DNA of 26,784 nucleotides from a virus, in IMG/VR virus record IMGVR_UViG_3300033144_000519, positions 1 to 26,784 of that record. One strand, 5' to 3'. Below the pieces are notes generated by a model. It did no database searches and was not told the origin of the DNA. It worked only from the letters and a program-made list of their open reading frames with translations. Positions 1,383 through 24,979 of the stretch are shown one piece after another. The stretch's first letter is position 1. Each line of letters starts with the position of its first letter. A program made the translations under genes and the position numbers.

Positions 1383-4300
1383 TTATTCTCCTATTTTCAT
1401 TACGGACATAGCAACGTCTTCAAAAGTCACGTCCCTATCCGTAGCAGAATCAGTTCCAGCCCATAGTTCAACAGTGTCAGCTGCCGTCAGAGCCACAAGA
1501 CCCATGAGGCTTATTGAGCCAGTATCACTACCAGAACTCAGCGACCTGTGAGCATGGACAGGAGAAAGTAAAGTGGCACCATCATTCTTTCTAGCGTCTA
1601 CATGAATCTCATGCCCAACTCCAGCGGCGTTTTTCACAGCAACGCTCGCCATGACAAAATAGACACCAGTATCAGCAATGACGATGTGATCATTAGCATT
1701 CTCTGGCGTCGTGTTGTTGGATGGATCGTCAGTGTCGAAATCTGTTACTTGTACGTCTGCTGAAACATTAAGGGTGAGTGCGTCGGTGTTCTCAGTTACA
1801 GAAATCCCGCCATAGGTTTTCGGCTTGAGCGCAATAAGCCCGGTGCCGTTGTTGTACGTCAGCACGTCGCCATCTTGCGATGCTCCAACCGTCTGGTCTA
1901 CGTCGAACAAATAATTGACGACATTGAACCCAGAAAGACCGGTGATGTTCCAATCGGTCGTGCCTGTGAAGGCTGTGTTGAAGTCCGTATCATCATGGTT
2001 AAATATCGCAGTGTCTGAGTTGGTCGAATCAAAAAACGTAAGGGCTTTACCAACCATGATCTCAATGTTGTTGTCTGGCTGAATTCGCATCGCGACCTGA
2101 CCGTTCACGCCCATGCCTACCGTGCCAGTGACGTATTCAGCATGAATCGCGATGCCGTTCTCCAGCATGTCGGTGAACGCATTGTTGCGCGAATCCTTGT
2201 CAGTGGAATTCATACCAATGCTGCCAAGGACTGCCCCGCCATCTTGCGAGAAGAAGATATATGGATTGTGAGTTTCCGTAGCGTTGTCGTCATCAGCAAT
2301 CAAGTGTATCGCTGTATCGCCATCGTTCCCGCTAATCTCAAAAATTACATCCATGCTGTCAGTCGCATCAAAGGTAATAGTATCAGCGGTTATGACAAAG
2401 CGACCGTTGGCGAGATCAAATTCTCCACCAGAGGTAAGGCGCAAGGTTGGAGATATTGAACTACCATAGTTGTTACCAAGGATGAACTCATTATTTTCAT
2501 CAATGAACTGGGCCATATCAATGAACCAGCCCTTATCGCTTGGACTTTCTATAAAACTAAACATGCGTCGTGATGTTGACGTGGGGATATTGTACTGGTC
2601 AAACAAAACGAGTGGCGTCGTCGCGTCACCCATGTCGCCACTAATGGTAAGCGGTGTATTGCCTGCGGTTGCATTGATTGTCGCTTGGTCATTGATGATA
2701 ACATCGGCGTTTAATGTAGTAAGACCATGAACAGTAGCCGCACCATCGACGTTCAGCGTGCTATCGAAGTCCACCGCTCCAAACACATTCAGGGTATCGC
2801 GCATGACTACAAAACCATCGACATCCAGAGTGCCATCGATGTCAGTTGCTGCTGACGCTATACGAGTCGTCAACCCATCGATGCGAGTCCCGTAACTCGG
2901 ATCACCAACGGTGAACTGCTCTTCTATTAGAGTCTTCATTCTGAGCAGCACCATGCCGTGATAGCGCCAACCATTTGAACCGAATGCGGCTGTGACATTT
3001 CGCGCCCTCATATTGATCACGACCTCATCGTCAGCGGAGTATGTTCGAGCGTCCGAAATCATCGACTGACCGACCGCAGGCGTATCGGAATCGACCACCG
3101 TACCCTTACGATGTACATATGCTATGTCCCAACCAATGGCTGATGACTCCGAACCACCATTGACTGTTTCAGTTAGCTCAAATCCACTCATGAGATTAGT
3201 GCCAGCCATTTCCTGAGTATTCCAGCCAAGGGCAAGAAAGTTAGAGCTGGCACCTACAGTCAGGGGCAATGTCTGGACAATCTCGGTATATTCACTCCCC
3301 GGAGATTCCTCCCATTGTTCTGCTACATAGACTGTCGTATCACTTGTATCTTGTACTCCAGCAGACTCTAAAAAATCGCTGAGCGGGATGGCGATTATTC
3401 TTCTGTGCGTAACATCAAGATCAGCAATAGCCCCACCAGACATTGCTCGAAGTGTAAAGGTGCCGCCTGCGTAGTCCTTAAAAAGATACATGCCCGCAAC
3501 AACAAGATCGTCACCGCTGCCGCCCGCAGCGCGATTACTAGCCACCAGCCAATCTCTAGTGCCATCATGAATAGCAAGTTGCGGGGAAACGAGACCATTA
3601 AACCCTTGGCATCTCATACCGACCATAACAAGCCAATCACCTGCACCCACGGCAACGTGAGTGTCAGATGTTTGGAAAGTCTCTGTGTGGTCGATCTCCC
3701 AAAGAACGGCAGAAGCAGCCCTTTGGTGATTCGGTATATGCGACGACAAGTTAAGGATGAGCGCCGTCTCTTTGGGAACTATGTTGCCAACTGATCCGCC
3801 AGCGACTACTGCTGACTTGTGTTGCGTTGTGATATTCCCCCCAGCAGTATCCGCTTGGAAAAAACCGAGATAACCGTATGGGCTGCCGTGCTTGTCGCCG
3901 GGACCAGCACCTGTCGGATTTGACTGCGAGTCTTGCGAGCCAACCACTTCAACGCCGCCGATTGCAACCCTGTACTGATTAAAGTCGGCAGCACTAGAAT
4001 CATTACTAGTATACAGGGCGCGAACATACATCATGTACCAGTCGCCATGTACCATCCCCGCCTGTGACTGATCCAACCCGTTCTCTGTATCTACGAAAAA
4101 ATCTTCTTCAGAAGTCAGCGACTCGACTGTGGACTCGAAGGTGTACCAGTCCATCGTTTCGCTGGATACTGCAGACTGGTTAAATATAAGCATCTCTATT
4201 GATGCGGCGGCAGCATCAAGCCAATTAACTGGCTGATCATTCTGCATGTTAAGACTGCCATCGAGATAAGTAGCAATAGACGTGATATTGGTTATCAGCC

Positions 4301-5693
4301 CATCAATAATTGTATCGTAGGATGGATCACCAATATTAAACTGCTCTGGGGTTTCTGGGGTTGGAGTAGCGAAGTCAGCATCTGGTATGGAGTACGAACT
4401 CATGCCGGTGTATCGAGCCGTGCCGATAGTCATGCGCACATCGTCTATCCAACCATCGTGTTCAGCTGTGCTTGCATCCAGAGCGCCAATACGGATCGGT
4501 CCCGTTGGTCCACCCATGTCAGCATCAGCTACACCGAAATCACTAACCTCAAAATTGCCATTGAAGTACGCATTGATAGTTCCACTCTCACGAGTTACAG
4601 CCCAGTGATACCAAACTCCAGTGGAGATGCCACCTGAAATTGTACCTACTTCAGCAAACCCAGTTCTGCCACTTTCAATTCTGACACGATAACCAAAAGC
4701 ATCCTGAATAATGGCGTAGGACAATAATTCATCTGGCGTTGTCGCTCCCCACATAGCGAACTGCACATAGCCCGGACCAATAGATGTCTCAAGCGGCGGC
4801 AGTGTATTGAAGCGCACGAAGCCTTCAACAGTCCAGTCGCTCGTGTCAAAATCATAGGCGGCAATGTCAGGGAACGTAACTGAATCACCTGTGCCATCGA
4901 GCAACAATGATGATGCACCAAAGTTAAACTGGTCAGTGTCAATCTGTGCGTTCGCAACAAAGGTAGCGACGGCTGCATTCGCAGACACTTCAGTATAATC
5001 GGTCGCTGCATCAGCACCCTCAAACTTCACCAGCAGCTCAACCCCTGCCGTATCAGCTGCGATCAAGGCAGTAAACTCAAGCAACTCTACAGTTGTACCA
5101 GCGCCATTCAGCCAGTTAATTGAATAACCGTTCGCCAGCTGCAGATGCTGAGCTGCTGGATGCCAACTCAGCTTGCCGTTGGTGTGCTGCCATTCGCCGC
5201 CAGTAGCATTGAACGCCAAGTCAAACTGTGCCTGACCAAACAGGTCAGTATCAGTCAAATCAACAAACGATGTGATGCCAGACGTGCCTGTTGCTTCCCA
5301 CCGGTTGGCAGAGGTCACCCACGTGAGAACTTCAGCATCACTGGGATTGGGTACAAACACATCTGTCAGTTGATCAAGCTCTATTGATGTGCCTGAAGAG
5401 CCGGGTTCAAAGCCGCTGCCATTCCAGACCAGCGTATCGTTTAATGACGGAGTGCCATCGACATCAGACAGGTCAAAGATGCTCTCCGCAGAGATGTTTG
5501 TAATGTAGTTACCAAGGTCGGTGATGTCAGACTCAGTGTGTGAATGAGCCTCGATGTCAGTTCCAGTGTCGAACAGTGAATCGTTGTCTGCTTCCAAAGC
5601 CTGAAAGCGCAGCTCAAGCGCAGAGACAAGCTGACGTATCTCATAGCCACTGAACTTTTCGGTGTTGAATGCTGGAAAGTGAATTTTTGGCAT
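1383..5693 (-). CDS. Large modular tail fibre / tailspike-like protein with LamG-like and C1q-like domains
   Basis: This 1436-aa protein is built from several modules. The N-terminus (1-60) has a helix that could trimerise, then HSHTESDITDLG, a motif common in phage fibres. Residues about 70-160 hold 'LxDLTDV...VLTW' repeats, also typical of fibres. Residues about 220-430 look like a LamG/concanavalin jelly roll (VELLVKFEG, SLLLDGTGDSVTFPD, WTVEGFVRF, GVWYHWAVTRESGTINAYFNG, GWIDDVRM). A block beginning QFNIGDPSY (about 451) recurs as QFTVGDPSY near 930, framing a central beta-rich region. A repetitive shaft with IDGTLDVDG follows. The last 142 residues resemble a C1q/TNF-like jelly roll (IVIADTGVYFVMASVAV, VDARKNDGATLL, DTVELWAG), as found at fibre tips. 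The gene overlaps the nozzle gene by one base (TGATG). Host recognition is the likely role. Which module binds the receptor cannot be told from sequence. Confidence 0.8.
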   Translation of the reverse strand: MPKIHFPAFNTEKFSGYEIRQLVSALELRFQALEADNDSLFDTGTDIEAHSHTESDITDLGNYITNISAESIFDLSDVDGTPSLNDTLVWNGSGFEPGSSGTSIELDQLTDVFVPNPSDAEVLTWVTSANRWEATGTSGITSFVDLTDTDLFGQAQFDLAFNATGGEWQHTNGKLSWHPAAQHLQLANGYSINWLNGAGTTVELLEFTALIAADTAGVELLVKFEGADAATDYTEVSANAAVATFVANAQIDTDQFNFGASSLLLDGTGDSVTFPDIAAYDFDTSDWTVEGFVRFNTLPPLETSIGPGYVQFAMWGATTPDELLSYAIIQDAFGYRVRIESGRTGFAEVGTISGGISTGVWYHWAVTRESGTINAYFNGNFEVSDFGVADADMGGPTGPIRIGALDASTAEHDGWIDDVRMTIGTARYTGMSSYSIPDADFATPTPETPEQFNIGDPSYDTIIDGLITNITSIATYLDGSLNMQNDQPVNWLDAAAASIEMLIFNQSAVSSETMDWYTFESTVESLTSEEDFFVDTENGLDQSQAGMVHGDWYMMYVRALYTSNDSSAADFNQYRVAIGGVEVVGSQDSQSNPTGAGPGDKHGSPYGYLGFFQADTAGGNITTQHKSAVVAGGSVGNIVPKETALILNLSSHIPNHQRAASAVLWEIDHTETFQTSDTHVAVGAGDWLVMVGMRCQGFNGLVSPQLAIHDGTRDWLVASNRAAGGSGDDLVVAGMYLFKDYAGGTFTLRAMSGGAIADLDVTHRRIIAIPLSDFLESAGVQDTSDTTVYVAEQWEESPGSEYTEIVQTLPLTVGASSNFLALGWNTQEMAGTNLMSGFELTETVNGGSESSAIGWDIAYVHRKGTVVDSDTPAVGQSMISDARTYSADDEVVINMRARNVTAAFGSNGWRYHGMVLLRMKTLIEEQFTVGDPSYGTRIDGLTTRIASAATDIDGTLDVDGFVVMRDTLNVFGAVDFDSTLNVDGAATVHGLTTLNADVIINDQATINATAGNTPLTISGDMGDATTPLVLFDQYNIPTSTSRRMFSFIESPSDKGWFIDMAQFIDENNEFILGNNYGSSISPTLRLTSGGEFDLANGRFVITADTITFDATDSMDVIFEISGNDGDTAIHLIADDDNATETHNPYIFFSQDGGAVLGSIGMNSTDKDSRNNAFTDMLENGIAIHAEYVTGTVGMGVNGQVAMRIQPDNNIEIMVGKALTFFDSTNSDTAIFNHDDTDFNTAFTGTTDWNITGLSGFNVVNYLFDVDQTVGASQDGDVLTYNNGTGLIALKPKTYGGISVTENTDALTLNVSADVQVTDFDTDDPSNNTTPENANDHIVIADTGVYFVMASVAVKNAAGVGHEIHVDARKNDGATLLSPVHAHRSLSSGSDTGSISLMGLVALTAADTVELWAGTDSATDRDVTFEDVAMSVMKIGE
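1388..1392 (-). promoter_or_regulatory. Ribosome binding site for the 44-aa gene
   Basis: AGGAG on the minus strand lies 6 nt before the ATG at 1381, inside the last codons of the fibre gene. It is the main support for the short gene being translated. Confidence 0.6.
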
Positions 5694-8182
5694 CAGCGCT
5701 TACCGTGTGCTCCGGCTCTTCCTCTCCAGTGTCCCATACGCCACTTGTCACCCGTACCAGTAGATTCAACCTTTAGCGAAATCTGACGTGCCCTCATGCG
5801 GGTTGACACCTTACGTGTACCCGCTGTAACCGTGTACGGTCCCTTCTCTATCCTGTTCAGGTCGCCCGGATATTTCTTGCCTGACAGGGACACATCGATA
5901 CTTCCTTCGAGCGTAAGGAAGTCTGGGATCAGTTGATCAACGTGCATCAGCTCTTCGCCAGCCGGTGGGATTTCCATATCGAATGATTCAATGTTTGCGA
6001 CCATTGCTGAGCCGTTATCGTCTGTGCCTGTCTCGTGCTGATACAGGTATCGGTCAACGCCTGCTGCATACGCTTTTTCCAACAATGGGGAGCGATCTGA
6101 CCATGCCGTTCTTGCCATTCGCCCTGTGGTCCACGATCCCTCTTCATAATTAAATGCCACGTATCGGTTGACTTCAATCGGACTGATATCGAAGTCTGTT
6201 GTTGTCAGTATCTCAAGCGGTCCTGCTGCCAGATTATAGAATTTGAATTCACCCTCAATGGTTGCTGTCGCCTCTGCATGGAGACCGAACGAGCCACCTG
6301 TGTAGAGAAGAGCCTCAGCAGCCGACAAGTCAAACTGCCACACCTGAATGCCATTCAAGTACACGGTTATCTCTAACAGGTTGACTGACACGGTGATGAT
6401 GTATTTTGTGTCCTGCGCCACTGCCTCGCCCAGCACTGACGTAAAAGTATCAGTGCCCGGATCATTAACAAGAACAGCCTTTGTGCCGCTCGCAACCTTC
6501 TTCCTGATGCGAATCGTGTCAGTAAAGAAGTCAGCCTCGACATAGATGCCCTGAGCATCATCAGAGCTTGTGTCTGGTGTGCCTGTGATCTCGGTACGCA
6601 GAAACACCATGCCACCCCAGTGAGTCGCAGCGCCACCATCTCCATTGAATGCAAACTCAACGGCATACTCGGCTTCAACGGGAGTGATCAGTGGTTCATC
6701 GTTGGTCAGGACATAATCAAATTCATAGCCGTTGTCTGCTGTGTTTTCGATCTCTGTCCAGCCACCTGAGTTGAATACGTAGCTGTAACCAATAGTTCCC
6801 CCACCAGATGCAGCAGCAAGCGAGTACCCCGGTGGAATTCCAAGTGAGAAGTCCTGTTGCGCCCAAGCCTCTGGATCGAAGCTCGGATAGAACCACCACA
6901 CTTCATTGAATTCTCGGTTGAGTCCACCGTAGACCTTTTCTTTCTGATCGTTGTTTAGATTGTCGTACACAAAGTTGCGCACGTCGCAGGGTATGATGCG
7001 CACGATGCCGTCATACATATAAAAATCAGCCTCAGCCATGAACAACACACGGTGATCAATCGGCACTGCACAATTCGCACCCAGTATCGAGACGTTCTCG
7101 CCAACGATGTTCAGACCGAATACAGCAAAGCCACCAACAAATGGCATCGTATGCACGCTCACGTCTGTGAAAATGACGGTCTCAAGACGCGACCTGACGC
7201 CTGCAATAATCTTTGAGCCTGAGTACAATCGTAGATCGCCTGATGTGTTTGTGCTGGTGGGAATCCAGTCGTTCAGGTCTTCAGTAGACGACCAACGAAT
7301 CAACAGTGGATCGAAAGCATCATTGAAAAAATCGTATGCTCCAAGAGCAATCACGTGTCGGTCGCGTTGTGAGACGACCATGTACTTGTTTTTTACAGGA
7401 GCATCACCACCAAGAGCTGCTGCGCGTGCGCCTGTGCCTTTAGATCGATCCCACCAATAAATAGAGCCATCAGTCGGAGATGCCAGCAGGTCTTCACCCC
7501 ACGTGTCCAGTGACCATGTTCTGATTCCCAGAACAAGCGTAGCGCCTGTGCGTGCGTTACCGTAGCCCTCACGACCGTATGGTCCTGTGCTATAGCCTGT
7601 TGCTGTTATCGCACTGGATTCTCCTGCGCTAATGTCGTACTCGTAGCTTGGACTGCCACCTTCGCCTGCACCACCAGTCCCTGCTGTTTCGTCGTCAGTG
7701 ATCTCGTAGTTATCGATATCGATGATCCTATCGACCTTGTACTCACCATCAACCGTAATGGCGCTCGCACCACCGATTATTGCACCGTCAAAGCGCACGT
7801 AGTCGCCAGCAGCAACACCATGGTTGCTATGCTCGACACGCACTCTGGTCTCGCCATCAAAGGTCGTGAACGGCGCTGTGAGCGTCCCTGAGTCCCTGAG
7901 AGGTGTAATGTCGTACAAGGTCTCGTTCTGCCATAGATACAACTTGGCTTCCGTGCCAATGGCTGTCCATCGCTTGGCGTCCAGTGACGACCAGTCCTTC
8001 AGGCGACGACAAGTACCAAGGAACTGTGGTTGCAGTTGAATCCAGCCACCAATTTTCTCAGCCAAGCCCTTACGAAAGCGTACCTTGTCAGCCTTGAACC
8101 ACTGTCCAACGGCACCACGCTCACTCTGTTCTGTGTAGAGACCGGGACCGATTGGCAGTGGAAAGATAACCTTCTGTGTCAT
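5693..8182 (-). CDS. P22 gp10-like tail nozzle / packaged-DNA stabilization protein with inserted lectin-like domain
   Basis: The 829-aa product fits the podovirus nozzle family, whose beta-propeller plugs the tail and holds packaged DNA. Family-like features include the start FPLPIGPGLYTEQSERGA (7-24), WFKADKVRFRKGLAEKIGGW (28-47), and blades with YLWQNETLYDITPLR, TWGEDLLASPTDGSIYWWD, WSSTEDLNDW and FMAEADFYMYDG. The usual run EVWWFYPS (about 428-434) does not lead directly into the next blade. It is interrupted by about 230 residues that look like a separate beta-sandwich, and the core resumes at VNRYVAFNYEEGSWTTGRMARTAW (about 671-694). The ATG overlaps the polyglycine protein stop as ATGA. 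Family assignment is fairly confident from motif order and neighbours. The insertion is discussed in the findings. Confidence 0.8.
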   Translation of the reverse strand: MTQKVIFPLPIGPGLYTEQSERGAVGQWFKADKVRFRKGLAEKIGGWIQLQPQFLGTCRRLKDWSSLDAKRWTAIGTEAKLYLWQNETLYDITPLRDSGTLTAPFTTFDGETRVRVEHSNHGVAAGDYVRFDGAIIGGASAITVDGEYKVDRIIDIDNYEITDDETAGTGGAGEGGSPSYEYDISAGESSAITATGYSTGPYGREGYGNARTGATLVLGIRTWSLDTWGEDLLASPTDGSIYWWDRSKGTGARAAALGGDAPVKNKYMVVSQRDRHVIALGAYDFFNDAFDPLLIRWSSTEDLNDWIPTSTNTSGDLRLYSGSKIIAGVRSRLETVIFTDVSVHTMPFVGGFAVFGLNIVGENVSILGANCAVPIDHRVLFMAEADFYMYDGIVRIIPCDVRNFVYDNLNNDQKEKVYGGLNREFNEVWWFYPSFDPEAWAQQDFSLGIPPGYSLAAASGGGTIGYSYVFNSGGWTEIENTADNGYEFDYVLTNDEPLITPVEAEYAVEFAFNGDGGAATHWGGMVFLRTEITGTPDTSSDDAQGIYVEADFFTDTIRIRKKVASGTKAVLVNDPGTDTFTSVLGEAVAQDTKYIITVSVNLLEITVYLNGIQVWQFDLSAAEALLYTGGSFGLHAEATATIEGEFKFYNLAAGPLEILTTTDFDISPIEVNRYVAFNYEEGSWTTGRMARTAWSDRSPLLEKAYAAGVDRYLYQHETGTDDNGSAMVANIESFDMEIPPAGEELMHVDQLIPDFLTLEGSIDVSLSGKKYPGDLNRIEKGPYTVTAGTRKVSTRMRARQISLKVESTGTGDKWRMGHWRGRAGAHGKR

Positions 8183-9339
8183 ACGCCATTCTCGTCGGTC
8201 GCAAACAGATACATAGAAGCGATAACTTCATCAGCGCCCATGTCGGTGCGCTGTATCTCGAACAGCTGACCAGCTGTCCAGAACTGATCCTTTGAAAACG
8301 TCCATGATCTGGTGCTGGTCAGTTGATACCATGTGCCATCCACCAAGCCTGTATCCCACGTTGAAAGTTTTTGCCCTAAAACACCTGAGCCACGAACCCA
8401 GTAATTATCACCATTGCCTGAAGCAAACGGTGGAAGCATCCAATCACTTGCAAAACCAGAGGGCGTGCCATCGTATATGGAACTCAGTTGACCGGTTGAT
8501 CCGAATTGCCAGCCGTGCGTTGACATTCCAGAGACAGAAGCATGGATAACGCGAAGCCTCACATTTAGTAAGAACTCGGTTTCACCTCTAAGCCTGCTCG
8601 CCAACCTGAGCACCGATTCAGTGCCGGTGCCATCGAATGAAATAGCAGCACCACCTGTTCCGCGAAAAGCATTGCCAGCCCTGCCGCCTTGTCCACCACG
8701 AAGACCGGTAGATAAGGCTACGGTCCCGCCTGTAATACCACCGAGACCAAAGTCACCACCTATGCCGCCGCCGTTGGTGGGACCGCTGCCACCGTTGCCG
8801 CTTGCGCCCGGACCAAGATTGTTGCCATCACCCCCTGCTGTTGCGGCTGGTGATCCAGTGCCAGCAATGCCACCGGTTGTCGGTAGAAAGCCTGCACCAC
8901 CACCACCGCCGCCGCCCGGTGTTTGAGCGCCGATCCACCAAGAACCACCACCACCACCACCGCCGCCGCCAAGCAGAAAGCCGTCATCTATGTCTATGGA
9001 TACGTCAAAGGTATTTGACTCAATAGCATGACCACCAACGACGCCGGGGGAACCAACAGTGCCTGAAATACCCAAGTCGTCGCCGCCGCCGCCGCCATCA
9101 CCACCAAGACCAATGAAACGTCCACCGTTTACCGCAATAAAGGTGAACGTGCTAAGTGCAGCAAAATCAAGGGTGATTATAATGTTGCCAACATCACAGC
9201 CATCAGCTGTAAAAAGCACATCAACAGCTGAGCTTGGGTTACCAATAAATGAGTACAGGTCTCCGACTAAAGTGTCAGAATCACAGACGATAGTGACTTC
9301 GCCACCTCCGGCAAACAACCCAAGGGAATTGTTCCACAT
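8179..9339 (-). CDS. Glycine-rich adhesin-like tail protein
   Basis: This 386-aa protein has three parts. Residues 1-75 are beta-rich. Residues about 78-225 are extremely glycine-rich, with poly-Gly tracts of seven to nine residues and GG-N/GG-I motifs around a SWWIGAQTPG core. The C-terminal 150 residues contain YWVRGSGVLG and TWYQLTSTRSWTFSKD, a beta-domain type often seen in phage structural proteins. Glycine-rich blocks of this kind in the T-even phage S16 gp38 adhesin form packed polyglycine-II helices with receptor-binding loops, so a tip adhesin is a sensible inference. It lies between a fibre-like protein and the nozzle. The start follows a GGGGGG-AG purine run, 3 nt after the preceding stop. 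It could instead be a structural spacer. Confidence 0.6.
   Translation of the reverse strand: MWNNSLGLFAGGGEVTIVCDSDTLVGDLYSFIGNPSSAVDVLFTADGCDVGNIIITLDFAALSTFTFIAVNGGRFIGLGGDGGGGGDDLGISGTVGSPGVVGGHAIESNTFDVSIDIDDGFLLGGGGGGGGGSWWIGAQTPGGGGGGGAGFLPTTGGIAGTGSPAATAGGDGNNLGPGASGNGGSGPTNGGGIGGDFGLGGITGGTVALSTGLRGGQGGRAGNAFRGTGGAAISFDGTGTESVLRLASRLRGETEFLLNVRLRVIHASVSGMSTHGWQFGSTGQLSSIYDGTPSGFASDWMLPPFASGNGDNYWVRGSGVLGQKLSTWDTGLVDGTWYQLTSTRSWTFSKDQFWTAGQLFEIQRTDMGADEVIASMYLFATDENGV
8895..9096. repeat. Trinucleotide tracts encoding poly-glycine
   Basis: Three runs of (CCA/CCG)n on the plus strand, at about 8895-8916, 8944-8970 and 9080-9096, encode poly-Gly on the minus strand. Such runs can gain or lose whole codons by slippage without breaking the frame. 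Confidence 0.8.
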
Positions 9340-10212: not shown

Positions 10213-10872
10213 TTATCTCTGATTGGTTGGGGAAGCTGGCACTTCCATCGGCGTCAGGTTGTATCGTTCTTGCAGCATCGTGTACGTCTCGCGCTTCGCA
10301 AGCGGCAAGGCATCAACGTACTCTTGTTTCCACATCTCCACTCGATCATCAGCCTTTAAGAAGCCCTCAGCTTCAGCCAGACATGCCTTGAACAGCAGGT
10401 CGTCCTGATGTAGCGATAACCATGTGGTGGCATTGCCATCAGATAGCCGCGTCGGTCGTGTCGTGCCACGAGTGTTGACTGTGTAAATATCGTCAGGGAT
10501 CGGAGATAGAAGCCAATCAGTCTCAGTCTGTTCAGCATAGTATTTAGGTGGAGCTGTGGACCCTATCGTCTGATGATCCCTGACGAAATCGGTTGATCGC
10601 AGTTCGAGCCATACGCGCTCGCCTGCGTTGTCATAGTAAAGCGACTGCCACGTTACCAACTCGGTGTCTGTTACGGGTTTAGTTAAGGTTTCGGTGGACG
10701 CGACAGTCGGTGTAGTGTTTTCAGACGTGAATATGGACAGGTCAAGATCGCGCCACAAGCGCATCTCTCCAAGGTTGATCACATCATCGATTGATCCTAT
10801 GAACTCGTTGTCATCATCTTCCACCCATGCCTGAAGATTGGCGACAAGCTCTGTGTATGTTTTGTTGCTCAT
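10213..10872 (-). CDS. Head-tail adaptor (phage SU10-type adaptor family)
   Basis: This 219-aa protein starts with YTELVANLQAWVEDDDNEFI, then a helix GSIDDVINLGEMRLWRDLDL. It continues with a beta region (YYDNAGERVWLELRSTDFV, PPKYYAEQTETDWLLSPIPDDIYTVNTRGTTRP) and ends with helices WLSLHQDDLLFKACLAEAEGFL and VEMWKQEYVDALPLAK. From memory this layout fits adaptors of short-tailed phages such as SU10, which bind the portal and receive the nozzle. Its position between neck and tail genes agrees. The ATG overlaps the stop of the 201-aa gene (ATGA). The 237-aa gene at 11474-12187 looks like a related second adaptor, so the neck may have two adaptor rings or one of them may be a fibre connector. 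Confidence 0.7.
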   Translation of the reverse strand: MSNKTYTELVANLQAWVEDDDNEFIGSIDDVINLGEMRLWRDLDLSIFTSENTTPTVASTETLTKPVTDTELVTWQSLYYDNAGERVWLELRSTDFVRDHQTIGSTAPPKYYAEQTETDWLLSPIPDDIYTVNTRGTTRPTRLSDGNATTWLSLHQDDLLFKACLAEAEGFLKADDRVEMWKQEYVDALPLAKRETYTMLQERYNLTPMEVPASPTNQR

Positions 10873-17145: not shown

Positions 17146-19578
17146 TTACTTGCTCGGTGCCTTTGGTTTCGGTTTTGCCGCCGCAGCCTTTGCGTCTCGT
17201 TTGATCTTGGCTTCGTTGGCCTTATCGTCTCTTTCTTCTTTGGCTGCTGCTGCACGATCTTCACGTGCCTGCTTCTGGTTGGCAAGGAAGTCTTCACGGT
17301 CTTCCTTGCTCAGTGCAGCCAAGTCATTACGGTTAATGTCTGCGAGAGCCGCTTCATCCTTCCTGCTTTGGTCTCTTTCATGCTCGTCGTCTTTTCGTGC
17401 CTCCTCTCTCTCGAATTGCTCTTCCTCTGGGTCCATCCCTTCACCGGGTTCCATGATCTGTATCTGTGGAATATCAGCTGCCCTCTGTGAAATTTGCAGC
17501 TCCATCTCTGGATCAAGTGGCTGTTCCGCGCTGTATGAACCCGGAGCTGGTAGCTGTCCACCCATTTGCCGCTGCATCTCAACGAAATACTTCATCGCAT
17601 AATGCTCAGCCATGTGTGCCTGCATGATCTGCCCCATCTGCTCCAGCGCTTCTGGTTGCAAACCATTGACAAAATTCATATGCACCGTGATGTGTGCATC
17701 GTGATCTTGGTCCATGAACGCCTTTGCGCCCTGACCCTGCAGCATCTTCATGTTCTCCTGCACTGGGTCTTCCCTGACGCTCTCTTCCTTCTGCAGCACG
17801 CCTTCAGGATCAGGAATGCGTATCGCCCGGAGAAAGCGCTGATGGCACTCCATCTGGTTATACAAAGCGGGATGCGCATCACTGAGTTCTATCAGCGCCT
17901 GTCCCTGTGCAATGCGCTGTGTTGAGCTGAAAATGTTTGGATCACTGATGGGAATGACATCAACACGACCGTCATAGTCATTACGCATGACAACCGCTTC
18001 TGCGTCTTCCACCTTGTACGGATACTGGTCCGGCAAGAATTCATAGTTGAGTTCAGCACGGAGCTTGAACTCTTCAGCCGCCGCCATATGCAAGCGACGA
18101 TGGATGGCTGAGAAAGGCTTGCTGCCCTGCTCTATGAGAGCGATGGTAGTACCCACCGGACCAGTGTTCTTTGCCTCGCCAGTCATCACTTCCGTGGTTG
18201 ACGAGAATGATTTACCTGCATCTCTAAGTATCTCAAACAGCTTGGCGAGCGCTTGAGACGGCTCTTTGAAGTTCGGCGTATAGAATGCACGGTTCAGCTC
18301 TTCAGCTGTCATGTTGACTTCTTTGTAAACGCCCGGAGCTATGTGCTCATCTCCGGGTGCCATCTTCGCATCGTTGGAGACGTAGCCGCCCTGCATGTTG
18401 GCGAACGCAGCCGCATCCAGCAGTGCGCGAATGGTTGCTGATGTTGCCTCAGATACGCTGCCAATCATGTGCAGCAGACCAAAGCCGTAGAAACCAATGC
18501 CCGGAAGATACTTGTAATGCGTGAACCAGATTCGCTTCTGCATCAGCGCGTCATCTTCTTTCCAGTTCCTGCGAATCGACAGCACTTCACGTGTCTCACG
18601 TTCTACCGTGGCGATATAGGGCAGCGGCGCTTTACGCTTATAGCGATCTTGGTCTGCTTCCAGCTCAAGGTCACAATGACATTCGTATACGGTGTACACG
18701 TTGTCGTCTGAATGCACATCAGCACTACGAGAATCTGCCTGATCCTGATGATACCGCTCTCTGTCGTCCAAGGTATCAGTGGCAAACGGAGTGACCAAAG
18801 GTAAATCAACTTCTTCCCAGAAGCCCGACTCAAACAGCTTCTTCATCTCTGATTCATTCTTGAACATGCGATGTGTATAGCGCGGTGCTGACGCAAGGTC
18901 GGTCGCGATGTACGGCACAATGAAATCAGGTGACTTGATGAAGCGGCTCACCACCATCTCGCTGGTGGGATCAAAGTAAGTCTTCTTGAAGGCTGACCCA
19001 CCAAGCGGTAGATAGAACAGCATCTGGTCCACCTGCCAGAAGTAGCTGCGATCCTGATCGAGAATCTGGTAGTTCATGTGATTCTTCACGCGATCAGCCT
19101 GCTCTTGCTTCTCTATGGTGGATTCACCAACAATCTTGGTCTTGACTGGTCCTTCAGAGGGGAACACCTCTTCAATGGCACGAGACTGGAACTGCACCAC
19201 AGCTTCCCCGATTAACGGGTAAGTGACCGCACTCGCACCATCAAAGGGTAATTCTTCCATGGGTATGTTGTTCAGACCCATCAGCTCCATGGCTTGCTCC
19301 ATGCGCTGTTCCCAGTCCTTGCGTGACTCAAGGTCAACGTCTACCCATTCAATGATTTTGTTTGCCAGCTCAGAAAGTTCCCGGCGATCAAGGTCGTGCA
19401 TGATATTCGCTGAGTGTTCGTCGCTGTCATCTTGAGACATGCGTGCTGCGCCCGGATTAAAATCTACCGTGGCACGGTTGCCGCGACGGACTATGCGAGT
19501 GCCACCGTAATCACCGGACAGCATCTCTTCATCCATCGGCATCTCTTGTGCGCGTGGTGCATCTACCAAAGCTGCCAT
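17146..19578 (-). CDS. Portal protein (P22-like)
   Basis: The 810-aa protein has the size of large podovirus portals. After a variable N-terminus, helices with IIEWVDVDLESRKDWEQRMEQAMELMG (about 75-101) lead to EELPFDGASAVTYPLIGEAVVQFQSRAIEEVFP (about 108-140). The core FWQVDQMLFYLPLGGSAFKKTYFD follows, then FTHYKYLPGIGFYGFGLLHMIGSVSEATSATIRALLDAA, and the stem/tunnel-loop region with STTEVMTGEAKNTGPVGTTIALIEQG. These match portal proteins of P22 and related marine phages. From about residue 700 the tail is a highly charged helical region (EEEQFEREEARKDDEHERD, then Ala/Lys-rich), comparable to the P22 portal barrel. It would form the dodecameric ring for DNA passage. The start overlaps the terminase stop (TAATG), the usual terminase-portal arrangement. 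Confidence 0.85.
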   Translation of the reverse strand: MAALVDAPRAQEMPMDEEMLSGDYGGTRIVRRGNRATVDFNPGAARMSQDDSDEHSANIMHDLDRRELSELANKIIEWVDVDLESRKDWEQRMEQAMELMGLNNIPMEELPFDGASAVTYPLIGEAVVQFQSRAIEEVFPSEGPVKTKIVGESTIEKQEQADRVKNHMNYQILDQDRSYFWQVDQMLFYLPLGGSAFKKTYFDPTSEMVVSRFIKSPDFIVPYIATDLASAPRYTHRMFKNESEMKKLFESGFWEEVDLPLVTPFATDTLDDRERYHQDQADSRSADVHSDDNVYTVYECHCDLELEADQDRYKRKAPLPYIATVERETREVLSIRRNWKEDDALMQKRIWFTHYKYLPGIGFYGFGLLHMIGSVSEATSATIRALLDAAAFANMQGGYVSNDAKMAPGDEHIAPGVYKEVNMTAEELNRAFYTPNFKEPSQALAKLFEILRDAGKSFSSTTEVMTGEAKNTGPVGTTIALIEQGSKPFSAIHRRLHMAAAEEFKLRAELNYEFLPDQYPYKVEDAEAVVMRNDYDGRVDVIPISDPNIFSSTQRIAQGQALIELSDAHPALYNQMECHQRFLRAIRIPDPEGVLQKEESVREDPVQENMKMLQGQGAKAFMDQDHDAHITVHMNFVNGLQPEALEQMGQIMQAHMAEHYAMKYFVEMQRQMGGQLPAPGSYSAEQPLDPEMELQISQRAADIPQIQIMEPGEGMDPEEEQFEREEARKDDEHERDQSRKDEAALADINRNDLAALSKEDREDFLANQKQAREDRAAAAKEERDDKANEAKIKRDAKAAAAKPKPKAPSK

Positions 19579-21242
19579 TACTTCATCCCTCTAATTCCGC
19601 CGTACATGCGAACAGGCTTGTTCACATAGTTCATCAAGTTGTCGTTATCGTCGTCGTCATCCAAGAAGTCAGCGCTCCACTTCTTGCGCAACCAAAGCAT
19701 TGCCATCGTGCATGAGTCAACCAAGTCATCATGGTCATCAGCCGGGAAATTACCGCACTGCTGTATCACCTCTGCCGACCAGTTACGCTTCACGTAGAAG
19801 ATGCAACCGCGCTCCAGTACCAGTGACGCAGCATGTGCCCGGACAAACTTGGAGTCCGTTACCTTGATACGTGCAATCGGCAAATTACCACGGCGCAGCT
19901 CTTGTGCCAGTGAGTGACCGCTTGCCTTCTTCTCAATCAATACCCGGTCAGGCTTCCACAGCTGTGCCGCCTCAATGGCGTTCTCACGCAGCTCTGGGAA
20001 CTCCATACGCTTGTTCATGCGCTCTAACAGAATCAGGCAAAGTCGCTTCTGACCTTTGTACTTGGCTGTCCATGGCAGCTTTGGATCGAGGTACTCTTCG
20101 TGCTCGAACACACCCCACGTGGTCCGGGCGCTGAAATCATGCTCTTCCTCTTCTTCAAAGGCTGTGTCGTAGCTCTGGATGACCATCTGAATCTGTGGCA
20201 ACTCAACATCAGTCCACTCGCGCCAGTGGTGCTCCTTCATGATGTTGCCGCCCTTCGCTGAAGGGTTCTGTTGAATCTGTGACTCGAAGCCACGCTCAGT
20301 CAGTTCGTAGGACAGCTTAGCCATCTCTGCCTGACCAAAGCGCTCCGGCGTAAGCAGATCATTCTCTTTCTTGCGTGGATCACGAAACAGAAGCTCACCC
20401 TTCACCAGCGGCTCAATGTCATCACCGAAGGTATAGACAGCCGGGTTTTCATTCGCTGGAATAGTTCTGACTGAGTTCTTCTTTGCTCTTGTTATGCAGC
20501 GCGTCTTCGGCACGTAGTATCCGGGCAGGTTCAAATGCACCCAGTTACCTGACGACAGCACATGTCCGGGCAGGTCTTGGTGGTGTCCACGTTGCGCGAT
20601 GATGACACGACCGAGCTTCTTCGGATCATTGCCACGTGTGGACATGACATCACGCCACCAGTCAATCACGCCTGCACGTATCGTGTCGCTGTTGATCTCC
20701 TTCATGTTGTGCGCGTCATCAACTACGATGCGGTCGCCACCTTCACCGGTTGCGGTTCCACCTACTGACGTTGCCAGCCTGTAACCGTTTGCGGTGTTGT
20801 CGAACCGTCCCTTCTGGTTCAGGTCGCTCGACAGTTGAAAGCAATCCCCGAAGTGGTCCTGATACCACGGTGACTGGATCAGCCGACGACACTTCACCGA
20901 ATCTCGGATTGTAAGGGAGCTTGCGTAGGTAGCGAATAACCACTGTGTTGAAGGTTGCCATGTCCACTCCCATGCAGGCCACATGACGGCGACCACGGTT
21001 GACTTGCTGTGTCGTGGTGGGATGTTGATCACCAGATCATCGATATCACCAAGCGACACATAGGTGAGGTGTTCACAGATCGCATCGATGTGCCAGCCAC
21101 CCTTGAACTCCTTCCCCGGCTCGACCACGTGCCATGCTTCAGAAAGAAACTGCTTCAGGTCGCGCTTCATACCGATAGCTTGTATCTGCGTCCAGCTGAT
21201 AGCAGGATCAAAACTGACGGCTTCTGCAGCGTTTATGTTCAT
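19578..21242 (-). CDS. terL: Terminase large subunit (packaging ATPase-nuclease)
   Basis: This 554-aa protein has both terminase domains. In the ATPase part, Walker A is PPRHSKST (75-82), Walker B is RIVVDDAHN (171-179) and a coupling-type motif is IIAQRGHHQDLPGHVL (214-229). In the nuclease part, acidic residues are SYDTAF (D359), VLIEKKASG (E437) and DDHDDLVDS (502-510), as in RNase H-fold terminase nucleases. The Walker B ends DD rather than the more usual DE. A GFESQIQQNP motif (318-327) is also typical of this family. The tail carries a DDDDDND run. Its ATG overlaps the stop of the repeat protein (ATGA). No small terminase subunit is recognisable in the window, so it may lie to the right. 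Confidence 0.92.
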   Translation of the reverse strand: MNINAAEAVSFDPAISWTQIQAIGMKRDLKQFLSEAWHVVEPGKEFKGGWHIDAICEHLTYVSLGDIDDLVINIPPRHSKSTVVAVMWPAWEWTWQPSTQWLFATYASSLTIRDSVKCRRLIQSPWYQDHFGDCFQLSSDLNQKGRFDNTANGYRLATSVGGTATGEGGDRIVVDDAHNMKEINSDTIRAGVIDWWRDVMSTRGNDPKKLGRVIIAQRGHHQDLPGHVLSSGNWVHLNLPGYYVPKTRCITRAKKNSVRTIPANENPAVYTFGDDIEPLVKGELLFRDPRKKENDLLTPERFGQAEMAKLSYELTERGFESQIQQNPSAKGGNIMKEHHWREWTDVELPQIQMVIQSYDTAFEEEEEHDFSARTTWGVFEHEEYLDPKLPWTAKYKGQKRLCLILLERMNKRMEFPELRENAIEAAQLWKPDRVLIEKKASGHSLAQELRRGNLPIARIKVTDSKFVRAHAASLVLERGCIFYVKRNWSAEVIQQCGNFPADDHDDLVDSCTMAMLWLRKKWSADFLDDDDDNDNLMNYVNKPVRMYGGIRGMK

Positions 21243-24200
21243 GTGCGTAGACTGAAGAACTTCGCGACCGTCAGCAGACGACGCACGACGAACTCTCCGA
21301 AGGAACCAGTGACATCATGGTCAGCGATGAGTGCATCCCAGACGGCATCAGCTTGGAACTCAGCCGTGGTCTGGGTAATGATGGTATCCAGTTTTGCAGA
21401 GTCAGCCGGATCAAACATAGCGATGATCCCACCAGAAGTCGTAATGCCATCTGTCATTGCATAGGCGAACTCTTGATAGCCAGTCAGCAGCGCTGGCTGA
21501 TCTGTTAGGTTGTCCGTGTCCCAAAGGAAGACTCCTGTCGCGGTTATCTCATCGCAGACGTTGTAATCGAGAGGTTCAACATCGCCGGTAACAGGATCAT
21601 ACAGCGTGATAGTCACGGTGCTTAGTGTGGGGAAAACCTCGGCTGCGTTGAAGATACCACCAAACGGGCTTGTTGCGACACCACTGGCTGTCGGCAGCGG
21701 TATCGACGGAGCGCCGCTCGCTACGTTTCCAACCTCTGCAACACCCGCAGCAATCGGCAAAAATACAGACGGTGAGCCGCTTGCTGTGTTCTCAATCTCA
21801 GCAGCACCGCTGGCTGTTGGTAAGAAAACAGAGACTGCGCCACTGGCTTGCTTCAGGGTGTTTGCGACACCGCTGGTTGTTATCAAAACTGTCGATGGTG
21901 CGCCAGTAGCCGCTCTTTCCATGACAACGGCACCACTGGACGTAGGCAGCAGTATGGACGGTGAGCCGAATGCCGTGTTGTTTACGAACGCTGTACCACT
22001 GGACGTGGGCAGGAACACTGTCGGTGCTCCTGTCGCCTTGTTCTCAACCTCAGCGGCACCGGTTGCAGTAGGCAAGAAGACCGAAGGAGCACCCGTAGCA
22101 GAGAAGGCTCCACCTGCATTACCGATGGCAGTTATGAGTATCGTTGCCGGAGCGCCAGTGGCTGTCTTTATAATCTCTGCGGCACCGGCTGATGTTGGTA
22201 GATGCGCCGATGGAGCGCCACTAGCAGCATTGATACCGCTGGTCGTAGCGGCACCACTGGATGTCGGTAGGAAGACTGAGGGCGAACCAGTAGCAGTATT
22301 GGTTACTTCTGCCACACCACTGGATGTTGGCAGGATGATCGAAGGCGCACCCGTTGCGGTGTTGCTGGTCTCGGCTACACCAGCCGCTGTCGGCAATATG
22401 ATCGACGGACTACCAGCAGCCGTGTTGGTGACTTCAGCAACACCCGCTGCTGTCGGCAGTATGGTCGAAGGCGCACCAGTCGCAGTAAAGACAATGCTTG
22501 CCGCACCGCTGGCAGTCGGCAAGAAGATTGATGGGCTACCAGTAGCTGCTCTGCTTACAGTGGCAGCGCCTGCCGATGTCGGCAAGAAGATCGATGGCGA
22601 ACCAGCTGCCGTGTTCTCAATTAAAGCTGCACCACTCGAAGTGGGCAGGAAGACCGATGGACTACCAGTAGCGGTGCTGATGACATCTGCAGCACCACTC
22701 GATGTGGGTAGGAAGACTGTCGGTGAACCACTGGCTGGTCTCTCTACTGTTGCCGCGCCGCTCGACGTTGGCAGGAATACTGAAGGCGCACCGTTTGCAT
22801 TGGATACCCCTTCGACCTCTCCAGTACCAGCAGCCGTCACCAATATGAGTGACGGCGCACCAGTGGCAGATCGTTCCATGACTGCCGCGCCACTGGATGT
22901 TGGTAAGGTGATCTCCGGCGCACCTGTAGCAATGTTCTCTACCGTGGCATCACCAGCTGACGTTGGTAGGATAATTGAAGGCGCACCGGATGCCGTATTG
23001 ATGACTTCAGCCGTACCAGCTGATGTGGGTAGCGTTATCTCCGGGGCACCAGTGGCGCTGTTGAGAACTTCAGCAACACCAGCCGATGCAGGCAAGAAGA
23101 CCGCAGGCGCACCATCGGCAGTCTTGATAACTTCCGCCGTGCCTGCCGAGGTAGGCAGGAAGACCGAAGGAGCACCAGTCGCTCCAAAGCTGATCTCTGC
23201 AACGCCAGCAGATGTCGGCAGGAATACCGATGGTGCTCCGGTGGCTGTCTTGATTGTTTCAGCCGTGCCAGCAGACGTGGGCAAAAAGACTGATGGTGAG
23301 CCACTGGCTTTATTAAGAACTTCTGCAACGCCAGCAGAGGTTGGTATCGCAATATCAGGAGCACCGGTAGCGCTTCGTTCGCTGTTCGCTACACCAGCCG
23401 ATGTAGGTAAGAGGATGCTCGGAGAACCAAATGCCGTGTTGCCTACGAAGCCACTGCCTGATGCTGTGATCAGGATGGTCGATGGAGCGCCGCTCGCGCT
23501 GCGTACCAACCCTGCCGTACCAGCCGCCGTTGGCAAGAATACTGAAGGTGCGCCGGTAGCCGCAAAGCCCAGCTTGGCAGCACCACTCGATGTCGGCAGG
23601 AAAACAGAAGGAGCACCATCAGCCGTGAAGCTGATCTCTGCAGCACCACTTGACGTTGGCAAGATAACTGAGGGAGCACCAGCCGCTGTGTTAATAACCT
23701 CTGCCACGCCAGCAGATGTCGGGAGAAATACTGAGGGAGCACCATCAGCCGTGTTCTCAATGACTGCCGCGCCAGCTGCTGTTGGTAAGAAGACCGAGAC
23801 TGCGCCTGTCGCAGTATTGATGACCTCGGCGGCACCAGCAGCTACTGGTAAAAATACCAGTGGTGCGCCGGTAGCTGTGTTCTCTACTTCAGCAACGCCA
23901 GCCGCAACTGGTAAAAATACTGACGGAGCACCGTTGGCAGACTCCCCGCCAAAGATGCCGACTACAACTGCAATCCACCCAACGTCGCCGCTGTTTCTGT
24001 TTTCGACTCCTAAGAATATGTTGCCTGTCGGTGGTCCAGCAGGATCATCGAATGTGATTGAGGTGCCATCTGCTGTCGCAGCAGTGACCGTCATCTCGGT
24101 CGCACCAATAAGGGTCTTGGTGGTGTTCAGATAAACTCTGGGCCAGATGAATGCAGCACCGTCAGCCGTGGGTAGGAATACATCTGGCGCACCCGTAGCA

Positions 24201-24979
24201 CTCTCATCCACCGCACCTGCGTCAGCGTTGGCTGTACCATCAGACGTGGGCAAGAAAACTGAAGGTGACCCGGCAGCGGTATTGATAACTTCTGCGACAC
24301 CCGCAGAGGTAGGCAAGAAGACTGAAGGAGCGCCTGTAGCACCGCTCTGTATTTCCGCCGCACCGGCTGAGCTAATAAAACCTATGGTGCTGTCGATGCC
24401 AGTATCGCCACCGACTTGAGCTGTATGGATAACCTCTGCGAGACCGCTTGATGTGGGCAGGAAAGCAGACGGTGAGCCTGCGGCACTCCTTTCGACGCCA
24501 GCCGCACCGGCAGAGGTGGGTAAGAACGTGGTTGGCGCACCATTGGCTGTGTTCTCAACGACAGCCGCACCACTCGACGTTGGCAGTATGATCGCTGGTG
24601 AGCCATCCGCTGTGTTCTCGATGACTGCAACACCAGCAGAGGTGGGAAGGAAGATGGACGGCGATCCACTCGCCGTGTTAATGACCTCAGCGGTGCCTGC
24701 TGACGTTGGTAAGAATGTCGTTGGAGCACCATCAGCCGTGTTGATGACGACCGCAGCACCGGCAGAGACGACAAGCGCAACGAGCGCCGCACCGGTAGCT
24801 GTGTTCAGTACCTCAGCGACACCTGATGATGTTGGTAAGAAAGCTGAAGGTGCGCCAGTAGCTGTTTCTCCACCAGCAGGTTCTTTCTCAGCCTCAGTAC
24901 GAAGCGCACCATCCTGCGGATCGCCAGTACCCTTCTGAACCTCAGTTCTTAGCGAGCCATTTTGGAACGGATCAGCCAT
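21239..24979 (-). CDS. Giant 21-residue-repeat surface protein, about 47 units
   Basis: The 1246-aa protein has a 41-residue N-terminus (with a small duplication, NGSLRTEVQK / DGALRTEAEK). About 47 tandem units follow with consensus G-A/S-P-S-V-F-L-P-T-S-A/S-G-V-A-E-V-I-N-T-A-T. A unique C-terminal domain of about 143 residues ends with AVWDALIADHDVTGSFGEF, a motif seen in various phage structural proteins. Each unit has two alternating hydrophobic stretches separated by Gly, which suggests two short beta strands per unit and a stacked beta-solenoid or fibre. A 72-residue non-repeat island interrupts the array (23936-24151). Codon third positions differ between units while the protein motif is kept, supporting this reading frame. 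It overlaps both neighbours (TAATG, ATGA). A head fibre, decoration or adhesion role is likely but unproven. Confidence 0.75.
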   Translation of the reverse strand: MADPFQNGSLRTEVQKGTGDPQDGALRTEAEKEPAGGETATGAPSAFLPTSSGVAEVLNTATGAALVALVVSAGAAVVINTADGAPTTFLPTSAGTAEVINTASGSPSIFLPTSAGVAVIENTADGSPAIILPTSSGAAVVENTANGAPTTFLPTSAGAAGVERSAAGSPSAFLPTSSGLAEVIHTAQVGGDTGIDSTIGFISSAGAAEIQSGATGAPSVFLPTSAGVAEVINTAAGSPSVFLPTSDGTANADAGAVDESATGAPDVFLPTADGAAFIWPRVYLNTTKTLIGATEMTVTAATADGTSITFDDPAGPPTGNIFLGVENRNSGDVGWIAVVVGIFGGESANGAPSVFLPVAAGVAEVENTATGAPLVFLPVAAGAAEVINTATGAVSVFLPTAAGAAVIENTADGAPSVFLPTSAGVAEVINTAAGAPSVILPTSSGAAEISFTADGAPSVFLPTSSGAAKLGFAATGAPSVFLPTAAGTAGLVRSASGAPSTILITASGSGFVGNTAFGSPSILLPTSAGVANSERSATGAPDIAIPTSAGVAEVLNKASGSPSVFLPTSAGTAETIKTATGAPSVFLPTSAGVAEISFGATGAPSVFLPTSAGTAEVIKTADGAPAVFLPASAGVAEVLNSATGAPEITLPTSAGTAEVINTASGAPSIILPTSAGDATVENIATGAPEITLPTSSGAAVMERSATGAPSLILVTAAGTGEVEGVSNANGAPSVFLPTSSGAATVERPASGSPTVFLPTSSGAADVISTATGSPSVFLPTSSGAALIENTAAGSPSIFLPTSAGAATVSRAATGSPSIFLPTASGAASIVFTATGAPSTILPTAAGVAEVTNTAAGSPSIILPTAAGVAETSNTATGAPSIILPTSSGVAEVTNTATGSPSVFLPTSSGAATTSGINAASGAPSAHLPTSAGAAEIIKTATGAPATILITAIGNAGGAFSATGAPSVFLPTATGAAEVENKATGAPTVFLPTSSGTAFVNNTAFGSPSILLPTSSGAVVMERAATGAPSTVLITTSGVANTLKQASGAVSVFLPTASGAAEIENTASGSPSVFLPIAAGVAEVGNVASGAPSIPLPTASGVATSPFGGIFNAAEVFPTLSTVTITLYDPVTGDVEPLDYNVCDEITATGVFLWDTDNLTDQPALLTGYQEFAYAMTDGITTSGGIIAMFDPADSAKLDTIITQTTAEFQADAVWDALIADHDVTGSFGEFVVRRLLTVAKFFSLRT
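21671..24856 (-). repeat. 63-bp tandem repeat array (21-residue units)
   Basis: About 47 copies at a 63-bp period encode the 'GAPSVFLPTSSGVAEVINTAT' unit. Most units are exactly 21 codons. A few carry insertions (for example near 24360-24420), and one 216-bp unique island lies at 23936-24151. Units diverge mainly at synonymous positions. Confidence 0.9.

Follow-up and report, generated by a model that had tools for sequence, protein, structure and literature searches.

A predicted jelly-roll domain in a hairpin of a podophage nozzle protein, with insert-less and tandem forms among relatives

The predicted nozzle protein of a virus from the IMG/VR collection carries a 237-residue insert that is missing from most of its homologues. 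The main part of the insert, here called domain B, is predicted to fold as a concanavalin-type jelly roll. The hairpin site that holds it is modular: relatives, a group of uncultured short-tailed phages, carry no extra domain, one (B) or two (a further domain, A, together with B). Domain B occurs in two classes, and domain A has been exchanged between phages. We think it probable that the inserted domains are interchangeable glycan-binding cassettes that aid adsorption, an "evolved nozzle" comparable to the "evolved Dit" known from lactococcal phages.

Results

Identity and genomic setting of the nozzle gene

The stretch of DNA analysed, hereafter the window, is an IMG/VR virus record of 26,784 bases. 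An 829-aa protein encoded on its minus strand (5693-8182) was assigned as a nozzle by its match to phrog_3287 ("virion structural protein", E 2.8e-64) and to solved nozzles. The profile of its core matched the nozzle of Pseudomonas phage Pa223 (9nwi, E 1.2e-28) and the nozzle gp16 of Vibrio phage VP1 (8zkk/8zkm; 8zkk with E 3.5e-12), the closest solved sequences to this core. The full-length structural model was poor (pTM 0.39). Its first five Foldseek rows were all nozzle chains (9nwi with E 5.1e-17, the SU10 tail and VP1), and VIA-align placed it on the SU10 nozzle with an rmsd of 11.4. The gene neighborhood is that of a nozzle, as the same window encodes an SU10-type head-to-tail adaptor (10213-10872, minus strand; PF24175, E 2e-22), a portal (17146-19578) and a large terminase (19578-21242). 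Judged from these sequence matches, the 829-aa protein is a podophage nozzle of the P22 gp10/SU10 gp17-like type.

In the available part of its description, the SU10 nozzle gp17 is a hexamer composed of a platform and a seven-bladed propeller, and it docks fibres (PMC9509320). Domain names were given to the window protein by analogy with SU10. The N-terminal core (aa 1-434; 6881-8182, minus strand), corresponding to the platform and most of the propeller, is 36-42% identical to insert-less homologues. The C-terminal core (aa 672-829; 5696-6169, minus strand) begins where the homologue matches resume. A first extra domain lies within the N-terminal core at aa 110-169 (7676-7855, minus strand) and was delimited by the alignment and by a weak match to End_beta_barrel (PF12195, E 0.0017, under the family cut-off). 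It is missing from the shorter distant nozzles that were aligned and kept in the closer insert-less ones. In the alignment, the named marine phages L101, L102 and L103 showed other, smaller insertions in or just past this region.

Two further observations concern the neighboring genes. Directly upstream of the nozzle gene, a 386-aa protein (8179-9339, minus strand) contains long glycine-rich runs and gave no Pfam or PHROG match; such runs recall polyglycine tail-fibre adhesins. An 842-aa open frame (21606-24134, plus strand) lies antisense to a 1246-aa gene (21239-24979) and is probably a codon-usage shadow.

Position of the insert and its absence from most homologues

The insert comprises aa 435-671 (6170-6880, minus strand). 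In the translation, the core breaks off after EVWWFYPS (aa 427-434) and restarts with NRYVAFNYEEGSW at aa 672. An earlier note on this DNA, made from the sequence alone, had placed the split at these two points with about 230 residues between them, and the three strand motifs that it quoted for the insert are all present in the translation. Its interval of 6179-6877, equivalent to aa 436-668, located the insert correctly and fell a few residues short of the exact bounds at both ends.

The comparison with insert-less nozzles that the note had proposed started from 221 hit ORFs among the matches listed, of which 192 were at least 560 aa long and 104 were left after removal of identical or contained ones. 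The segment proved to be missing from most homologues: among the matches listed, 88 of the 104 distinct ORFs have 6-16 residues at the site and the other 16 have 140-486, the value of 140 coming from L011, in which the segment is ended by the contig end. The less related loci L019-L080 (n = 62, among the best 80 of 132) gave core matches that stop at aa 434-439, and in 59 of the 62 a C-terminal piece was found that resumes at aa 667-674 with few residues between. The solved nozzles 9nwi and 8zkk/8zkm are 513 and 521 aa long, compared to 829 aa in the window. They have a short turn at the site, and their hairpin aligns to the profile with a gap of 0 or 1 residue. The possibility that all homologues possess the segment as part of the propeller was rejected on account of these insert-less proteins. 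Insert-bearing L007, with a core 57.6% identical to that of the window, is as close to it as L198 (57.0%), which has only 16 residues at the site.

Core strands at aa 427-433 and 671-678 flank the insert in the full-length model (pTM 0.39), of which the strand pattern near the site was used. This prediction supports a split within the hairpin that joins two successive strands of the core. The insert begins with a linker (aa 435-463; 6794-6880, minus strand), as defined by the alignment and the ends of BLAST segments.

Predicted fold of domain B

Domain B (aa 464-662; 6197-6793, minus strand) was modeled with AlphaFold2 from an alignment with ten relatives. The model consists mostly of strands and has a pTM of 0.75 and a mean pLDDT of 69; its first 37 residues are mostly below 50 pLDDT and its overall confidence is moderate. 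In the Foldseek search against the PDB, the first row was a CBM66 module (E 6.2e-06), and GH43 xylosidases, PL7 lyases and galectins were among the later ones. The closest fold in VIA-align 2 was CBM66 of Bacillus subtilis (4b1m, 4azz, 4b1l; Z 14.0-14.5, rmsd 2.8-3.0 over 142-144 residues), with 4b1m_C at the top (Z 14.5, rmsd 2.8, 142 of the 199 residues), and galectins reached Z 12-13.5. For comparison, models with no clear Foldseek match typically peak at 7-8. Identity between CBM66 and domain B is 16-17%, and the likeness is one of fold. The specificity of CBM66 is for fructan. Within the full-length model (pTM 0.39), aa 462-658 likewise matched CBM66 (4azz and 4b1m_B, Z 12.6, rmsd 3.0-3.3), galectins and the lectin domain of Emp46p (Z 12.1).

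These models support the view that domain B is a separate concanavalin-type (LamG/CBM66/galectin-like) jelly roll inside the nozzle. The earlier note had read a concanavalin/LamG-like jelly roll from the strand pattern and had suggested a structure prediction with comparison to LamG and carbohydrate-binding folds; both the separate domain and the matches to such folds were obtained. The opposite possibility, that there is no separate domain, was rejected, because the segment forms a domain of its own in the model of B as well as in the full-length model.

At the sequence level, none of the 11 members of domain B reached any Pfam cut-off. Laminin_G_3 (PF13385) was the commonest sub-threshold match (three of the 11, best E 0.00046), the B of the window itself gave no Laminin_G_3 match at E ≤0.1, and the galectin family was absent from the Pfam matches of all 11 at the same threshold. 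The insert searched alone by sequence against the PDB found no match, nor did B match any of 50,697 phage records with an E threshold of 0.01, and for this reason B is left without a name by sequence. Domain B was found in 19 viral loci and in a single contig from a MAG labelled Desulfuromonadales, in every case within a nozzle ORF; queries with B against the loci searched matched no ORF other than nozzles.

Domain A and the modular site

Domain B stands alone in the window and in L001, L002, L084 and L085. In L003, L005, L006, L009, L012, L014, L018 and L098 it is preceded by domain A of about 240 residues, which enters in the linker after about aa 456 according to the alignment and the BLAST segment ends. 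Both architectures were seen among relatives with 71-82% core identity to the window. The earlier note had described one inserted domain and had not recognized this modularity.

Domain A of these relatives belongs to the Laminin_G_3 family known from phage tail fibres, of which B is only a sub-threshold match. Two of the five A sequences scanned passed the family cut-off of 27.6 bits, namely A of L005 (E 4.2e-15, 56.6 bits) and the LamG domain of L011 (E 6.3e-07, 30.1 bits; the contig ends inside the domain); A of L003, L006 and L012 gave no Pfam match. The others are connected through a fibre. Next to the nozzle gene, the window encodes a tail-fibre-like protein of 1436 aa (1383-5693, minus strand) with a Laminin_G_3 domain at aa 266-421 (4431-4898, minus strand; E 5.6e-11), and A of L003, L006, L009, L012 and L018 align to this fibre with E values of 6e-21 to 8e-05. 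The Laminin_G_3 domain of the fibre is 37% identical to A of L005 (E 4.5e-27) and 34% identical to A of L003 (E 6e-21). A of L005 also matched 96 of the 50,697 phage records, mostly those of Synechococcus phages and several of them annotated as tail or structural proteins; LamG_3-type relatives of A are thus common, and they occur in cultured phages of open-water hosts. A sequence search of the PDB with domain A returned two chance-level rows only.

Profile comparison of A with B (hhalign) gave a probability of 0.3%, that of unrelated sequences, and an origin of B as a duplicate of A was consequently rejected. The LamG_3 domain of L011 (5384-5938) is placed differently from A in the other A + B nozzles, since it follows a B-like start (IGYDYSFNSAGYTE) and does not sit in the linker ahead of B.

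Exchange of domains between nozzles

Identities were compared region by region for 15 insert-bearing sequences, of which 13 (78 pairs) were used; L162 and L007 were left out as too divergent, and the N termini of L018 and L162 are truncated. Over the 78 pairs, mean identity was 79.6% for the N-terminal core, 78.9% for the C-terminal core, 59.9% for B and 43.9% for A. The identity of the N-terminal core showed a rank correlation of 0.76 with that of the C-terminal core and of 0.25 with that of B, both descriptive, as the 78 pairs are not independent; its correlation with A (0.21, p 0.29, again from non-independent pairs) was not detectable.

Domain B falls into two classes, with 64-83% identity inside that of the window, 62-91% inside the other and 42-55% between them. 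The cores that bear the two classes are 71-89% identical; for example, the N-terminal cores of the window and of L003, which has the other class of B, are 83% identical. The window and L001, which share a class, are 80, 79 and 77% identical in N-terminal core, C-terminal core and B, respectively. Within a class B thus accumulates differences at the same rate as the core, and it is therefore replacement, and not fast point change, that makes the difference; these identities give no hint of rapid adaptive evolution within a class.

In a comparison of DNA along the gene, L014 and L098 share 98-100% identity across some 200 codons of A, against 53-83% in all other parts. L003 and L009 reach 84-99% across both inserted domains, A and B, and 63-87% in the rest, whereas L084 and L009 are mostly 73-90% identical in the core and 45-55% in the middle of B. 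Such patterns are signatures of domain replacement by recombination. The near-identity of the A domains of L014 (5381-6115) and L098 marks a recent transfer of one LamG-type domain between phages.

A core tree was built from 50 of the 104 nozzle ORFs, comprising all insert-bearing ones together with L198 and a sample of the others; L011 was labelled B in this tree, although its contig ends inside the LamG domain. Nozzles with B alone and with A + B alternate in the tree, and L084/L085 (B) group with L150 (A + B) with a support of 100. Because of this alternation, A must have been gained or lost repeatedly. Insert-less L198 sits within the insert-bearing group (nodes 84 and 88), and therefore either it has lost the domain or the domain was gained more than once.

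Discussion

In phage tails, modules of concanavalin type often act as glycan binders, and folds of this type have structural and enzymatic roles as well. In the reading that we favor, one or two autonomous jelly-roll domains would be set into a propeller-blade hairpin with the flanking strands otherwise unchanged, and the hairpin would serve as an acceptor site for exchangeable domains. With a nozzle that is presumably hexameric as in SU10, there would be six inserted domains per tail and twelve in the A + B forms. They would be exposed on the virion surface around the tail outlet and may bind a surface glycan of the host, for example O-antigen, capsule or exopolysaccharide. This extra grip would add to that of the fibres and help to hold the tail against the envelope, so that the domains would act as an accessory adsorption module whose cassettes would be swapped as hosts change their surface sugars. 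The earlier note had already raised the possibility of a second host-contact site on the nozzle, and by analogy host contact is plausible, given the fold, the LamG_3 kinship with the fibre, the exchange of cassettes and the Dit precedent.

A structural role, in which the insert would be a dock or brace for the adjoining fibre or a spacer of the tail tip and not a sugar binder, is a rather unlikely explanation, though several observations agree with it. The SU10 nozzle possesses a loop that docks fibres, and its inserted Ig-like domains form an extended nozzle (PMC9509320). In the window, the fibre gene and the stop of the nozzle gene overlap by one base. Of 47 insert-bearing ORFs, 37 have a motif of the fibre N terminus downstream, against none of 145 insert-less ones, as counted by a regular expression in ORFs with at least 300 bases downstream, with duplicates kept and divergent N termini (e.g., that of L198) missed. 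However, in insert-less L198 a fibre homologue still comes next after the nozzle, with an N terminus that is related but divergent (32% over 102 aa, E 6e-13). Moreover, the exchange of A alone and the presence of two B classes on near-constant cores are unlike what would be expected of a fixed dock, and the fold matches sugar-binding modules.

An enzyme, or the descendant of one, with the same fold and cutting surface polysaccharide, as a PL7 alginate lyase would, appears very unlikely. Foldseek did list PL7 alginate lyases for B (AlyA1, E 1.2e-05, rmsd 7.1), Alginate_lyase2 (PF08787) matches one of the 11 B sequences with E 0.064, and LRT[ED], conserved in 10 of the 11, faintly resembles the PL7 motif R[ST]E[LV]R. 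Yet none of the 11 members reaches the Alginate_lyase2 cut-off, the PL7 motif QIH is absent from the B alignment, and CBM66 and galectins are closer to B than PL7 is. It is also improbable that the domains bind environmental glycans (mucus, algal or sediment polysaccharide) and so concentrate virions near their hosts, without touching the host cell. The same evidence of fold would serve this explanation, and the LamG_3-type relatives of A in cultured phages of open-water hosts, mostly Synechococcus phages, are in keeping with it; nothing in our data favors it over binding to the host, domains at the tail outlet would be better placed to touch a cell than the surroundings, and for the latter capsid decorations are usual. 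Two further readings of the segment, as a normal stretch of the propeller and as an error of assembly, can practically be dismissed: no evidence for either was found, the segment keeps its reading frame open in several contigs from metagenomes (L001, L002, L084, L085 and others) and in the contig of the bacterial MAG, most homologues do without it, and it is predicted as a domain of its own.

Interchangeable glycan-binding cassettes that aid adsorption would have a counterpart in the evolved Dit of lactococcal skunaviruses. In that work, recombinant phages demonstrated that Dit with inserted carbohydrate-binding domains restores full infection of exopolysaccharide-producing lactococci (PMC10688798). 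As in that system, an insert of carbohydrate-binding type is found in a conserved tail protein, forms with and without it occur naturally, and it is likely an aid to adsorption. The Dit case differs in that it concerns a distal tail protein of siphophages whose function was shown, whereas here zero, one or two domains occur in a podophage nozzle and a function in adsorption would follow from the comparison. The SU10 nozzle (PMC9509320, available part) resembles the present one in accepting inserted domains, and an SU10-type adaptor accompanies the gene in the window; its four Ig-like domains are located between blades 2 and 3, whereas the jelly roll of the window occupies a hairpin closer to the propeller's C-terminal end. 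Carbohydrate-binding inserts in Dit and inserted domains in nozzles are already known from these two sources. No published nozzle protein described with a lectin domain or a carbohydrate-binding domain was found in the literature searched, which was judged mostly at listing level and includes the available portions of PMC9509320, PMC13320782, PMC10688798 and PMC13299392. A nozzle hairpin with a lectin-type cassette that also occurs in tandem and is exchanged thus appears to be new with respect to that literature.

A bolder version, which we put forward tentatively and with some doubt, is that the nozzle hairpin is a site for receptor-binding cassettes. The tail outlet would then be a second determinant of host range, swapping its domains independently of the fibres and from a pool common to them.

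For short-tailed phages, fibres and tailspikes are the usual places to look for what sets host range. Should the nozzle carry sugar-binding modules that can be exchanged, predictions of host range from fibres alone would miss a determinant, and the Dit-type strategy of siphophages would have a counterpart in podophages. The natural series of nozzles with no insert, with B, with A + B, with two classes of B and with an A moved nearly unchanged between divergent cores makes this idea testable.
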